A stretch of DNA of 64,000 bases from Serratia surfactantfaciens (GTDB lineage: Bacteria; Pseudomonadota; Gammaproteobacteria; Enterobacterales; Enterobacteriaceae), in NCBI RefSeq assembly GCF_001642805.2, contig NZ_CP016948.1:4898001-4962000 (forward strand), given 5' to 3'. The notes below the pieces were generated by a model. It saw only the letters and a list, made by a program, of their open reading frames with translations. It did not search any database and had not been told where the DNA came from. How positions within the stretch are numbered: the first letter of the stretch is position 1; each line of letters starts with the position of its first letter. The translations under genes were made by a program, and so were the position numbers. Of the stretch, positions 10,442-14,743 are shown one piece after another.

Positions 10442-10671
10442 GGCATCGTCCATCAGAGAGTGGATCGCTTAAAGGGCGATTGCAGAGGTCTGCATACCAA
10501 AAAGCCGAAAATGATGCTTTTTAGTGTTAAAAGCATAATCCAATTTATAGTTATAAAAGAGGAGATATGTGCTTGTGATATCCTCATGAGAGCAATGGTG
10601 TTTTTTGGAGCAATTTGAAATATGGAAATGATGATACTCGCCCGCCGCTTACCGTTCCGGGAACTGACATA
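10442..10671. other. Divergent intergenic region between yhbW and the HlyD-like gene
   Basis: No gene is seen in these 230 bases. They are visibly AT-rich and carry two inverted repeats: ATGCTTTT (10514-10521) with AAAAGCAT (10529-10536), and GAGGAGATAT (10559-10568) with ATATCCTC (10578-10585). Either could be an operator for one of the divergent genes; no regulator gene is next to them. Confidence 0.5.
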
Positions 10672-11643
10672 ATGAAAAAAAAGACGTTGTTTACCCTATT
10701 GCTGATGATGGTGGCGATCGCATTGGCGATCCTGTTCCGCGCGCACAACCAGGATTTGTTGCTGCAGGGTGAAGTGGATGCGCCTGAAGTGATCGTCGCT
10801 TCCAAAGCGAAAGGCCGGGTGGTTGAACGCCTGATTGAGCGCGGCGACGACGTGAAAAGCGGTCAGCTGATCATCCAGCTCGACAGCCCTGAACTGATAG
10901 CGCAACTGCGTTCCGCACAGGCGACGCGCGACGAAGCCAAGGCGCAGCTCGACCAGTCGCTGAACGGCACCCGTGAAGAGAGTATCCGCAACCTGCGCGC
11001 CAACCTGGCGCAGGCCGAAGCGCAGTACCGCAATGCGCAAAATGACTACAATCGCAACCTGAGCGTGGCCGGCAAAGGCTATATCTCGAAGTCCGAGCTG
11101 GACGCTTCGCGCCGCGCGCGCGACACCGCCTTCCAACAGGTACAGGCGGCCAAAGCCAATCTGGATGAAGGCATCAACGGCGATCGCGTCGAGCTGCGGC
11201 AACAATATGCGGCGGCGCTGCGGGCGGCGGAAGAGAACCTGCTGCAGATCCAGGCGCAGACCGACGACCTGCAGGTAAAAGCGCCGGTGGATGGCGAAGT
11301 GGGGCCGATCCCGGCCGAAGTGGGTGAACTGCTGAACGCCGGCAGCCCGCTGGTGACGCTGATCCGGGTGCCGGACGCTTACTTCGTGTTTAACCTGCGC
11401 GAAGACATCCTGGCCCACGTGCGCAAAGGCGACAAGGTCAAGCTGCGGGTGCCGGCGCTGAAGGACAAAATGATCGACACCGAGGTGCGCTACATCGCGC
11501 CGCTGGGGGATTACGCCACTAAACGCGCCACCCGCGCCACCGGCGACTTCGACCTGAAAACCTTCGAAGTGCGCCTGTATCCGTCACAGCCGGTGGACGG
11601 CCTGCGTCCGGGGATGAGCACCTTATGGCAATGGAAAGAGTAA
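10672..11643 (+). CDS. HlyD-family periplasmic adaptor (membrane fusion protein)
   Basis: The 323-residue protein has an N-terminal membrane anchor (residues about 5-22, after MKKK), a split lipoyl-like domain (VVERLIERGDDVKSGQLIIQLDS and, after the coiled coil, LQVKAPVDGEVG), a central alpha-helical hairpin rich in Ala/Gln/Arg (about 70-200), and a beta-barrel end. Such proteins link an inner-membrane transporter to an outer-membrane channel. GGGA precedes the ATG at 10672. It overlaps the next permease gene by 19 bases, so the three genes form one operon. It is most like adaptors of YhiI/YbhG type; the substrate is unknown. Confidence 0.85.
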   Translation: MKKKTLFTLLLMMVAIALAILFRAHNQDLLLQGEVDAPEVIVASKAKGRVVERLIERGDDVKSGQLIIQLDSPELIAQLRSAQATRDEAKAQLDQSLNGTREESIRNLRANLAQAEAQYRNAQNDYNRNLSVAGKGYISKSELDASRRARDTAFQQVQAAKANLDEGINGDRVELRQQYAAALRAAEENLLQIQAQTDDLQVKAPVDGEVGPIPAEVGELLNAGSPLVTLIRVPDAYFVFNLREDILAHVRKGDKVKLRVPALKDKMIDTEVRYIAPLGDYATKRATRATGDFDLKTFEVRLYPSQPVDGLRPGMSTLWQWKE

Positions 11644-12779
11644 GGGCCGGCTGGCGCTGCTTCAGTCACGCGTTCGACAAAGAGTGCCGCGTCGCCTTTC
11701 GCAGCCCGGTGGTGCACTGGCTGAGCTGGATCTTTCCGCTGATCCTGTTTGTGCTGATCAGCAGCAACTTCTCCGAAGGCACGCTGCTCGATCTGCCGGT
11801 CTCGGTGGTGGATAGCGATCACAGCCCGCTGTCCAAATCGCTGACGCGCCGGCTGGATGCGGGTTCGCACGCCCACGTCGAGGCTTACGGCGGCGGATTG
11901 CCGGAGTCGCTGAACCGCCTGCGCAGCGCACAGGATTACGCGTTGCTGTACATCCCGCCGGACTTTGAGGCCAACGCGCTGTCGGGCAAGCAGCCGAGCG
12001 TGGTGATGTACTACAACGCGCTGTTCTACGGCGCCGGGCTGTACTCCACCCAGGACTTCGGCGGCCTGATGAACGAAATCAACGCCAGCACCCGCAGCAT
12101 CATCGCCACCGAGATGGGCAAATCGCTGCCGCCGCTGGCGGACGTGACGCTCTCCTACGGCAGCCTGTTCAACGCCAGCGGCAGCTATATCTACTACCAA
12201 CAGTTCGCCGCCACTATCCACCTGCTGCAGCTGTTCGTGGTGACCTGTATGATCTACGTGCTGGCGCGCAGCAAGTCGCTGCTGCAGGCCAAGCCGTTCA
12301 GCCTGGCGCTGCTCGGCAAGCTGGCGCCCTACACGCTGTGTTTCACCACCCTGCTGATGGTGGAGATCGCGGCGCTGGTGGGCATCTTTGACGCCCGCGT
12401 CAGCGGCAATCCGCTGTTTATGCTGATGATCGGCCTGTTCTACGTGATGGCGGCGCAGAGCATCGGCCTGCTGCTGTATACCTTTACCGGCAGCACCATC
12501 ACCGCGTACAGCCTGATCGGTATTTTGGTCAGTATCGCAATGACTTTCTCCGGCATGGCGGTGCCTGAGCTGTCGATGCCGCTGCCGGCGCGCATCATTT
12601 CCAACATCGAACCGTTGACCCACGCGCTGTACGCGATGTTCGACGTGTTCCTGCGCCAGGTGCACGCTAGCGCCATCTTCAGCGTGTGCGCGCTGCTGGC
12701 GGTCTATCCGCTGGTGGCCGCGCTGCTGGTGCGCAACCGCCTGCCGGCGCGGCTGGCAAAAGAGGGGAACGCCGGATGA
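11625..12779 (+). CDS. ABC-2 type transporter permease (first of two)
   Basis: This is a 384-residue membrane protein of the ABC-2 family. One N-terminal transmembrane segment (WLSWIFPLILFVLISS) is followed by a large periplasmic domain starting LLDLPVSVVDSDHSPLSKSLTRRLD, then five C-terminal membrane helices. The domain architecture resembles YhhJ/YbhR/YbhS drug-efflux permeases. It has no Walker A or ABC signature. It begins inside the adaptor gene and shares ATGA with the next gene. The substrate is not evident. Confidence 0.85.
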   Translation: MAMERVRAGWRCFSHAFDKECRVAFRSPVVHWLSWIFPLILFVLISSNFSEGTLLDLPVSVVDSDHSPLSKSLTRRLDAGSHAHVEAYGGGLPESLNRLRSAQDYALLYIPPDFEANALSGKQPSVVMYYNALFYGAGLYSTQDFGGLMNEINASTRSIIATEMGKSLPPLADVTLSYGSLFNASGSYIYYQQFAATIHLLQLFVVTCMIYVLARSKSLLQAKPFSLALLGKLAPYTLCFTTLLMVEIAALVGIFDARVSGNPLFMLMIGLFYVMAAQSIGLLLYTFTGSTITAYSLIGILVSIAMTFSGMAVPELSMPLPARIISNIEPLTHALYAMFDVFLRQVHASAIFSVCALLAVYPLVAALLVRNRLPARLAKEGNAG

Positions 12780-13915
12780 AGCTTTATTGGCAAACCTTCG
12801 TTAAGGTGCTGCTCGGCATGCTGGAGCGGCCGGTGTGGCTGATGCTGATCCTGTCGCTGTGTATCATGAGCATGGTGTACGCCAACCGCACGGTGTGGGA
12901 TCTGCCGGTGGGGGTGATCGATCAGGATCACAGCACCGCCAGCCGCCAGCTGATCCGCCAACTGGACGCCACCTCCAAGATCGCCATTGAAACTTACGAC
13001 AGCCTGGAGCAGGCGCAGCGCGATCTCGGCTGGCGCAAGCTGTTTGCGGTGCTCATCATGCCGGTGGATCTGGAGAAGAAAATTCTCAGCGGGCAGAACA
13101 TCGTGGTGCCGATGTACGGTGACGCCACCAACCGCCTGGCTAACGGCCAGATCCAACAGGACGTGGTGGCGGCCTACCAGCAGTTGTTGACGGAGTACAA
13201 CAACGGGCTGCTGCTGCGCAGTGGCTTCAGCGAACGGCAGGCGCAGATATTGCTGACGCCGATACTGGGACAAACGCTGGACGTGTTTAACCCCGGCATC
13301 AGCTTTGCGGCGATCATCTTCCCCGGCCTGCTGGTGATGCTGTTGCAGCACTCGCTGCTGATCGCCTGTATCCGCGTCAATATCGCCATGAAGAGCATGC
13401 CCGGCGGCAAGGCGCCGCTGGCGGCGCACCTCGGCGGGCTGACGGCGCTGCTGCCGATCTGGCTGTTCCTGTCGATCGTGCTGTTCGTGCTGTGGCCGTG
13501 GGTCTTGGGCTATCGGCAGACGGCGAACATCGCCGAACTGCTGCTGCTGACCTTCCCGTTCCTGCTGGCGGTATTGGGGCTGGGCAAGCTGGTAACCGAG
13601 TGCCTGCGCAGCGTCGAGATGATCTACCTGACGCTGGCGTTCATCACCACGCCGATCTTCTATCTGTCCGGCACCATCTGGCCGCTGCAGTCGATGCCGG
13701 CCTGGGTGCGCGCCATCTCGTACAGCATTCCCTCCACCTGGGGCACCAAGGCGATCGCCGGCGTCAACCAGATGGGGCTGTCGCTGAACGAAGTGTGGGG
13801 CGACGTGGTGATGATGTTGATACTCGGCGTGGTCTATACCCTGCTGGGCTTCGGCGTGGGTTTCTTGCGCAACAGCGTGGCGCTGCGCGGGATGTTCAGG
13901 AAGCGGCGAGTGTAG
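12776..13915 (+). CDS. ABC-2 type transporter permease (second of two)
   Basis: The 379-residue permease has the same plan as its upstream neighbour, sharing the VWDLPVGVIDQDHSTASRQLIRQLD block. The two genes therefore look like an old duplication working as a heterodimer. The start at 12776 overlaps the previous TGA (ATGA); the frame extends upstream without a matching N-terminus. Membrane helices cluster at residues about 15-35 and in the C-terminal half (FPGLLVMLLQHSLLIACI, LPIWLFLSIVLFVLW and later). No ATP-binding motif is present here or elsewhere in the operon. Confidence 0.85.
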   Translation: MKLYWQTFVKVLLGMLERPVWLMLILSLCIMSMVYANRTVWDLPVGVIDQDHSTASRQLIRQLDATSKIAIETYDSLEQAQRDLGWRKLFAVLIMPVDLEKKILSGQNIVVPMYGDATNRLANGQIQQDVVAAYQQLLTEYNNGLLLRSGFSERQAQILLTPILGQTLDVFNPGISFAAIIFPGLLVMLLQHSLLIACIRVNIAMKSMPGGKAPLAAHLGGLTALLPIWLFLSIVLFVLWPWVLGYRQTANIAELLLLTFPFLLAVLGLGKLVTECLRSVEMIYLTLAFITTPIFYLSGTIWPLQSMPAWVRAISYSIPSTWGTKAIAGVNQMGLSLNEVWGDVVMMLILGVVYTLLGFGVGFLRNSVALRGMFRKRRV

Positions 13916-13924
13916 GGGATAAAT

Positions 13925-13952
13925 AAAGGCGCCATTTTCGGCGCCTTTATTA
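13925..13952 (+). terminator. Terminator after the adaptor-permease operon
   Basis: AAAGGCGCC and GGCGCCTTT pair around ATTTTC and run into TATTATTT, ten bases after the last permease stop. Confidence 0.85.
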
Positions 13953-14112
13953 TTTCATATTATCGATGTATTTAATTTGTTTTGTTTAGTTGGTTGCTGG
14001 TTTTTTTTGATTTTTTATCTTTCCTTTGGTAATTATAATTGTCGATATATTTAGGGAATTAATGGTCGGCGTTAATTTTATCTGTAACGTGTTATTTAAA
14101 GGATGGAATAAT

Positions 14113-14436
14113 ATGTCAACAATAAGAACGCTTACATTTGACGAGATGAAACTGATTGGCGGTTGTGGCGATGGGCATAACGGCGGCGATCGTGACAGCC
14201 CAAGCAGAGGTGCACCAAACTCTTGTGCCAATCAGGTTGGAATGGGCATTATCATTGGCGCATTTACCGGTTTTTCCGGCGGCCCGCCAGGGATGATAGG
14301 CATGGCAGTTGCCGGCGGCTTGATGGGGGCAGTTTCTTGCGCAGATAACAGCCCAGCAAGAAGCAATAAGAATAACGATGGTGCTTTGGGAGGCAATAAA
14401 AATGCCAATAGTGTTAATGGGCAGTGTCGCCGGTGA
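14113..14436 (+). CDS. Putative double-glycine leader microcin/bacteriocin precursor
   Basis: The 107-residue product starts MSTIRTLTFDEMKLIGG followed by CGDGHNGG. This matches double-glycine leaders (Leu-Thr-x-x-Glu-Met ending Gly-Gly), so cleavage after G17 would release a 90-residue peptide. That peptide has four cysteines (C18, C38, C76, C105), a Gly-rich hydrophobic stretch with GxxxG-type spacing (residues 42-75) and a polar Asn/Gly-rich tail ending QCRR, all like class II microcins. AAAGGATGG ends seven bases before the ATG; the frame is open upstream but not with a leader. The surrounding DNA is AT-richer than its flanks. A small membrane protein follows 42 bases later as candidate immunity protein. 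No peptidase-type exporter is in the window, and no known bacteriocin is recognised by name. Confidence 0.65.
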   Translation: MSTIRTLTFDEMKLIGGCGDGHNGGDRDSPSRGAPNSCANQVGMGIIIGAFTGFSGGPPGMIGMAVAGGLMGAVSCADNSPARSNKNNDGALGGNKNANSVNGQCRR

Positions 14437-14478
14437 TGTGAGTGTCGTTTCTGGGGCATCAAAATAGAGGTTAGAATG

Positions 14479-14706
14479 ATGGCCAATAAACGTCTGGTCA
14501 ACCTGCTTTGCAATATGGTGGCCTTAACATTGAGCATATTGCTTATTTCTTTCTCCTCACTGCATATTATTTCATACGGAGAACATTTGGCAGATGCGGC
14601 CATTGCGGTTTTCACATATTTTGGTATCAGAAGCTGCTGTCTGATGGGGGTAAGCTTATTCCAGTGGTTCCACGGTGGGAATAATCGCATTCCTCTTGAT
14701 AAATAA
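14479..14706 (+). CDS. Small two-helix membrane protein, putative immunity protein
   Basis: The 75-residue protein has two predicted membrane segments, about residues 6-29 (LVNLLCNMVALTLSILLISFSS begins there) and 38-60 (ADAAIAVFTYFGI then CCLMGVSLFQWF), and a short polar tail. Small hydrophobic proteins encoded directly after class II microcin precursors usually give self-protection. GAGG at 14467-14470 is eight bases before ATG 14479; an ATG one codon earlier is also possible. The function is inferred only from size, topology and position. Confidence 0.55.
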   Translation: MANKRLVNLLCNMVALTLSILLISFSSLHIISYGEHLADAAIAVFTYFGIRSCCLMGVSLFQWFHGGNNRIPLDK

Positions 14707-14709
14707 ACC

Positions 14710-14739
14710 ATGCCGGCAGCGTCCGCTGCCGGCATTGTC
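14710..14739 (+). terminator. Terminator after the microcin-like pair
   Basis: GCCGGCAGCG and CGCTGCCGGC form a perfect ten-base-pair stem with a TC loop, followed by ATTGTCTTT. It separates the plus-strand unit from the end of ubiV on the minus strand and may serve both. Confidence 0.75.
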
Positions 14740-14743
14740 TTTG

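Follow-up and report, generated by a model that had tools for sequence, protein, structure and literature searches.

Introduction

Class II microcins occur, according to the main text of a recent study, in 96% of Serratia marcescens assemblies, and 17 of them were shown there to be antibacterial (PMC13101503, 2026; the set is numbered SM001-SM080 and a list of 93 sequences is in its supplement, File S1). In microcin V (colicin V, MccV) and microcin H47 (MccH47) killing resides in the N-terminal part, whereas uptake depends on the C-terminal part, as given in the pertinent text of PMC12511343 and in later places of PMC13174018; one place in PMC13174018 gives the reverse domain order, and the former order is followed here. 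Natural Erwinia/Pantoea hybrids with an H47-like front, joined in three of them to a PDI-like back, are described in the corresponding part of PMC13174018.

Here we describe a two-gene locus of Serratia surfactantfaciens, analysed in a window of 64,000 nt (positions 4,898,001-4,962,000 of a 5.1-Mb, one-contig genome). With a probability of roughly 0.8 we regard it, on the strength of sequence comparisons, as a mobile class II (IIa-like) microcin cassette, which would encode a secreted peptide acting against related bacteria and a membrane protein protecting the producer. The observed basis of this reading is a conserved leader sequence, selection on both genes, exporter linkage of relatives, a site that holds the cassette in some genomes and lacks it in others, and immunity-type genes without an intact peptide partner. 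An earlier note on this DNA had proposed a microcin with its immunity gene, and this proposal is supported; of the findings that would have spoken against it, genomes carrying the ORF but lacking a C39 transporter and homologues with a poorly kept leader were looked for and not seen. In the mechanism that we propose, the precursor would be delivered to an unlinked C39-peptidase ABC exporter, one of those that the cell possesses, lose its leader behind Gly-Gly-Cys and leave through a TolC-type channel. The tail, ending in NSVNGQCRR, would bind an outer-membrane receptor of a related bacterium, and a Gly-rich hairpin of helices, which a Cys38-Cys76 disulfide probably holds together, would act at the inner membrane. 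The two-helix membrane protein of 75/76 residues would protect the producer, probably by recognising the core. What is added here to the picture of such microcins is a corrected leader, a likely single disulfide and a tail common to several cores. The peptide is a concrete member of a widespread, barely characterised microcin family, in a genus that includes opportunistic pathogens.

Comparison with described microcins

The locus resembles the microcins of PMC13101503, as its main text presents them, in species group, in leader type, in C39 export that is often unlinked or shared, in small adjoining immunity genes and in the presence of several microcins per genome. Five sequence strings of the family were not found in the main texts searched; the sequences of PMC13101503 lie in its supplement. 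The peptide belongs to a known kind of class II microcin and is either new or already in the PMC13101503 list. With microcin V and H47, likened by their published descriptions as far as these go, it shares the leader, C39 export, two-part architecture and a small inner-membrane immunity protein, whereas the Gly-Gly-Cys end of the leader and the cysteines bracketing a hairpin set it apart. Like the Erwinia/Pantoea hybrids it appears to be made of recombined killing and uptake modules; by description only, the difference is that here cores of several classes share a single tail, and it is the core that the immunity-type gene seems to accompany.

Comparison with domain models gave weak likenesses. 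Of 24 family members, eight reached E<=0.1 with Bacteriocin_IIc (PF10439), the best at 2.2e-4; P0001, the precursor studied here, scored 11.6 bits, below the cut-off of 27.1, and its own genome gave no match to this model. The model of the E492 group microcins (NF051486) was weakly matched by two of the 24 (best E 0.0082), P0001 giving no match at E<=0.1. Weak matches to lantibiotic models were more numerous than those to the E492 model, in three of 24 members with NCBIfam (best 0.0014) and in four of 24 with Pfam Mersacidin (best 0.0056). Assignment to the class IIb (siderophore) microcins was rejected: the tail, NSVNGQCRR, is not Gly/Ser-rich, and the neighbours at 8-21 kb of the window are, by resemblance, HlyD-type, ABC-2-type permease and U32-peptidase-type genes rather than the modification genes expected for class IIb.

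The two genes and their cassette

The features of the locus are listed below in window coordinates. P0001 denotes the 107-codon precursor (14113-14436) and P0002 the adjoining membrane protein downstream.

13916..14740, + strand: cassette, approximate extent, about 835 bp between the flanking genes, as against about 51 bp in four close relatives
14098..14103, + strand: ribosome-binding site AAAGGA of the precursor gene, read from the sequence, 9 nt before the first ATG
14113..14436, + strand: putative class II microcin precursor gene, 107 codons and stop (open reading frame, dN/dS, homologues)
14113..14166, + strand: double-glycine-type leader, predicted end ..LIGGC with the cut after Cys18 (leader matrix); the earlier note's alternative ends at 14163
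14167..14433, + strand: predicted mature peptide, about 89 residues, three cysteines (C38, C76, C105)
14224..14340, + strand: core, a Gly-rich predicted helical hairpin bracketed by Cys38 and Cys76 (low-confidence model; probable disulfide)
14377..14433, + strand: C-terminal tail DGALGGNKNANSVNGQCRR, common to microcin-like peptides with dissimilar cores, probable receptor-binding part
14466..14470, + strand: ribosome-binding site AGAGG of the second gene, read from the sequence
14476..14706, + strand: immunity-type membrane protein gene, 76 aa from the ATG at 14476 or 75 aa from the ATG at 14479
14710..14735, both strands scored: terminator-like palindromic hairpin of 11 pairs, between the cassette and the convergent U32-peptidase-type gene

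Both open reading frames of the earlier note, one of 107 codons at 14113-14436 and one of 75 codons at 14479-14706, are present as claimed; for the second gene, the in-frame ATG at 14476 is better spaced from AGAGG than the ATG at 14479. The terminator of its own that had been ascribed to the unit was recovered as the terminator-like hairpin at 14710-14735; the scan of 900 bases, with both strands scored, gave three such sites versus a shuffle mean of 1.2. The upstream DNA, judged by eye, is AT-rich. The promoter scan gave two sites, equal to the shuffle mean and both on the minus strand. A 19-base Fur-type consensus had its best upstream matches in seven loci at 11-13 of 19 bases, in positions not aligned between loci, and 12/19 matches number 44 in the window. 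Near the locus, three Rfam matches were obtained at E<=0.1 and none above the gathering score.

Selection was estimated from five Serratia loci (L007-L011), the locus itself included. From the 7 of 10 pairs per gene in which dS was unsaturated, dN/dS came to 0.05-0.14 (precursor) and 0.17-0.33 (second gene). Both open reading frames are under purifying selection and are therefore not chance frames. The same selection among relatives, the intact reading frame, the ribosome-binding sites and the presence of three C39 exporters in the genome speak against a microcin locus that has lost its function in this strain, being silent or lacking a matched exporter. We consider this improbable, even though the promoter sites are no more frequent than in shuffles, the allele ends in RR where most close relatives end in RW, and truncation or frameshift affects many alleles (16 of 90 family proteins have no intact tail by pattern, some perhaps being fragmentary records).

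The pair is flanked by an ABC-2-type permease gene on one side and a U32-peptidase-type gene on the other, both named by resemblance. With the latter as bait, matches were obtained in 26 of 30 genomes. We call the pair a cassette because four close relatives (L076, L080, L081, L084) have about 51 bp between the two flanking genes instead; in one genome this gap is 226 bp. In G000, G009 and G022 the flanking genes are 835-846 bp apart and enclose the pair, and in G005 and G016 the pair lies at the same downstream gene, with no permease match in the 1.5 kb covered. G021 has kept an immunity-type ORF at the site without an intact peptide gene, and the other genomes inspected carry other genes there. 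Relatives with core class A (core-A) occupy at least two further Serratia chromosomal sites.

Upstream of the cassette, at 10615-13915 of the window, lie genes resembling an HlyD-type protein and two ABC-2-type permeases, with no obvious ATPase gene in the ORF list; they are probably unrelated to the microcin. In G005 (L038, 6900-13970) a CRISPR-like array, recognised by a repeated YPRWRGEH translation, and genes resembling those of Cascade are found directly beside the microcin cassette.

Distribution of relatives

A protein search with P0001, restricted to proteins 0.55-1.75 times as long as the query and thus hardly able to show homologues fused to unrelated domains, returned 31 homologues at E<=0.01. 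The best match among those listed has 93% identity, and since the database groups sequences at 90%, an identical entry could hide in a cluster; Serratia marcescens is the source of the nearest named protein relatives. A family profile of 15 rows found at least 86 proteins at E<=0.001 among 7,993 candidates scored. Of 30 genomes from the genus, 12 gave a P0001 match, eleven with a core like that of P0001 and one (G007, L018) with another core. Samples of the GTDB family gave matches at E<=0.01 in 8 of 198 genomes with the single sequence and in 27 of 392 with the profile, the weakest being doubtful; one weak match of the single-sequence search (G037, E 0.008) lies inside a frame of 470 aa. A tblastn search of 72,556 plasmid records yielded three matches at E<=0.01, in Ewingella and Pantoea. 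None of the 85 pattern matches of a contig scan with P0001 was confirmed, in a set from which near relatives may be absent.

The leader and its predicted cut

The precursor has cysteines at residues 18, 38, 76 and 105. The earlier note had the leader end in LIGG and the mature peptide start with Cys18 (CGDGHNGG), which would give 90 residues with four cysteines. The position of the cut was scored with a matrix made from the leaders of 43 distinct relatives, omitting positions -3 to -1. P0001 scored +17.5 bits for a cut after residue 18 and -19.6 bits after residue 17; with position -4 omitted as well, the values were +14.5 and -17.2, and a version containing four more leaders, in which Ile/Val at -4 is fixed by construction, gave +18.1 and -19.2. 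Left-out training leaders scored 8.0-28.4, with 8 of the 43 below P0001. In another peptide of the same genome (L023) Ala replaces that Cys, and the cut is likewise read after GGA, at a weaker score of +11.7. The matrix thus favours the cut after Cys18, and the leader most likely ends there, between GGC and GDG, with 18 residues in the family register. Such a leader falls within the 15-18-residue double-glycine type of class II microcins, with Cys at -1 as a motif variant; the passage of PMC13174018 on cleavage sites names GG, GA and GS, and Cys at -1 is not among them.

With Cys18 in the leader, the predicted mature peptide shrinks from the proposed 90 residues and four cysteines to about 89 residues and three cysteines. 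The double-glycine leader is conserved in the homologues, divergent relatives included. Anyone cloning or synthesising the mature peptide must mind the shifted leader register.

Export machinery

The genome contains three ORFs for C39-peptidase exporters with the (S/N)ECGLACLA motif, all unlinked to the cassette, and 12 matches to outer-membrane efflux domains; a search for such exporters elsewhere in the genome had been proposed in the earlier note. No C39 exporter was found in the 64,000-nt window, nor in the covered parts of seven extended Serratia loci (L039 without its start; L041 over 7 kb). In the genus, C39 matches are present in 24 of 30 genomes, namely in all 12 with a P0001 match, as expected from the earlier note for genomes carrying the ORF, and in 12 of the 18 without one (Fisher p 0.057, not significant). 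Outside Serratia, six loci were extended to 12-14 kb, and all of them have an HlyD-type fusion protein and a C39 exporter close to the gene for the peptide. The exporters were called by annotation in L025 and L026 (plasmid records) and by Pfam in L034-L037 (four stretches from three genomes). L025 and L034 are near-identical, L035 and L036 belong to one genome and the L036 peptide has another core, so that the six represent four to five independent cases at most; a second Pantoea plasmid match and further family-profile matches lie outside this set. This physical linkage is stronger evidence for export than the genus census, which is consistent with it and not conclusive. The exporter and fusion protein of a class II microcin are thus available, unlinked in the genome studied here.

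These loci also bear on the notion that the two genes form a toxin-antitoxin or membrane-stress element acting inside the cell. The peptide is small, hydrophobic and Gly-rich, its neighbour is a small membrane protein and their presence at one site varies, all of which could be read in this way, but a C39-type leader kept in one register and the fusion protein and exporter near the peptide gene in six of six extended non-Serratia loci make a non-exported element hardly credible.

Several further systems were noted. The three C39 exporters of the genome studied here have neighbours of their own. At L004 (6282-10386) and L005 (6939-10787) the exporter is accompanied by a double-glycine peptide gene; the peptide of L004 has GGTCSW as its end and a small membrane-type ORF downstream. 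L006 (5207-10839; C1:125000-143000) contains a short precursor ending in SVSGGWVNAFARWSKSF, a radical SAM gene, an aspartyl-protease-like gene, a fusion protein and a C39 exporter, and resembles a cyclophane RiPP cluster. Beside microcin and exporter, L035 and L037 have a gene resembling a CPBP-type protease, while L026 (annotated) and L036 (similar-looking) have a Clp-like gene.

The immunity-type protein

The model of P0002 consists of two long helices at medium to low confidence (pLDDT 67), in line with the earlier description of a 75-residue two-helix membrane protein downstream. No domain match above a cut-off was obtained for P0002. The membrane proteins adjoining core-A peptides are related and divergent, with 20-37% identity to P0002 outside the nearest group. 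An immunity-protein profile gave 25 matches in 13 of the 30 Serratia genomes, and all 12 genomes with a P0001 match are among these 13; in G007 the immunity-type genes do not adjoin its intact peptide gene. An ORF for a peptide with intact tail lies at most 800 nt upstream in 13 of the 25 matches. The remaining 12 are solitary or, as seen once, adjoin a truncated peptide ORF, partners being judged by the tail pattern, which a peptide with a quite different tail would escape. A protector that outlives a lost weapon is typical of bacteriocin immunity, and these partnerless genes look like traces left by earlier rivalry among strains. Sequence, predicted helices and solo copies thus make the second gene a candidate for the adjoining small inner-membrane immunity gene of class II microcins.

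The solo copies matter also for the possibility that the double-glycine peptide is a signal (pheromone), with the two-helix protein as sensor or accessory. C39 exporters serve signal peptides too, and the Serratia cassette has no exporter of its own; a peptide of about 89 residues with a Gly-rich hairpin is, however, unlike short signal peptides. A neighbour that gives no domain match above a cut-off and that occurs without an intact peptide gene in 12 of 25 cases fits immunity better than sensing, and we regard a signalling role as very unlikely.

Core, cysteines and a probable disulfide

The model of the peptide has helices at residues 38-52 and 57-75, at low confidence (pLDDT 47), with Cys38 and Cys76 bracketing the hairpin. 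Counted from the GG, 74 intact-tail proteins have three (35), one (22), four (14), two (2) or five (1) cysteines, a count that still mis-parses the leaders of P0073, P0089, P0091 and P0096; the proteins with four or five are the P0001 subgroup carrying Cys18. When Cys18 is assigned to the leader and these four proteins are dropped, the remaining 70 have three (45), one (20), two (4: P0016, P0025, P0026, P0061) or four (1: P0013). The intact-tail filter, which removed 16 of 90 proteins, demands the tail cysteine, whose invariance in these counts is therefore by construction. The inner cysteines mostly come as a pair or are absent, with a spacing of 38-45 in core-A, 62-65 in core-B and 29-30 in core-C. 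Because of this pairing, and because the model brackets the hairpin, a single disulfide between Cys38 and Cys76 is likely, and the tail cysteine is probably unpaired within the peptide. As regards class IIa, whose members carry disulfide bonds as their sole modification, what was observed is this co-occurrence of the inner cysteines, with the tail cysteine left over. With three cysteines in the mature peptide, the two disulfides proposed earlier are unlikely.

The tail and the apparent core-immunity relationship

The tail motif NSVNGQC-x-W is common to several dissimilar cores. To compare the parts, each precursor was divided into leader, head, core and tail. Conservation is highest in the tail, with a mean pairwise distance of 0.34 versus 0.72 for the core and 0.90 for the membrane protein (21 pairs of genes, near-duplicates included). 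By analogy with MccV and MccH47, it is the probable receptor-binding part.

A Mantel test on the 21 pairs, near-identical ones kept, gave r 0.82. In 14 non-redundant pairs, chosen by hand (L013, L015 and others left out as near-duplicates; L052, L055-L062 and L066 unused), the membrane-protein distance correlated with that of the core at r 0.52, a value reached in 17 of 10,000 permutations, versus r 0.07 with the head and r -0.16 with the tail. For L021, L033, L053 and L074 of these 14, an upstream ORF was taken as the membrane protein, and the ORF assigned to L026 resembles none of the other membrane proteins. Using the downstream ORF of L021 instead gave r 0.46 (20 of 10,000 permutations); omission of the four core-B loci represented by an upstream ORF left 10 pairs, for which r was 0.33 (1,051 of 10,000), and in core-A alone (9 pairs) 0.10 (3,197 of 10,000). 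The signal thus sits between core classes. The membrane protein appears to follow the core class and not the tail, a relationship that rests on the four core-B loci.

A bolder idea, which we put forward as doubtful, takes the tail, GGxxxxNSVNGQC[RH]W, for a transferable address label. At least four dissimilar killing cores in Serratia, Rahnella, Pantoea and Ewingella would bear it, each paired with a distinct kind of immunity protein, and the usually unpaired Cys of the tail would act in delivery, for instance through a mixed disulfide at the receptor or through dimerisation. To our knowledge, this would be an uptake principle not known from described class II microcins. The tail common to different cores makes the receptor question tractable, and one receptor may serve many microcins.

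Heads also cross cores: GNNGGDR and NADSGYEG precede dissimilar cores, and GNDTSSR precedes both core-A and core-C. Parts of such microcins seem to be mixed and matched between species. The L023 locus of the same genome (1217-1824; C1:2412854) holds a second orphan microcin-like gene with a GDGNNGGDRD head as in P0001 relatives, from which it differs in core and tail; a small membrane-type ORF lies upstream of it.
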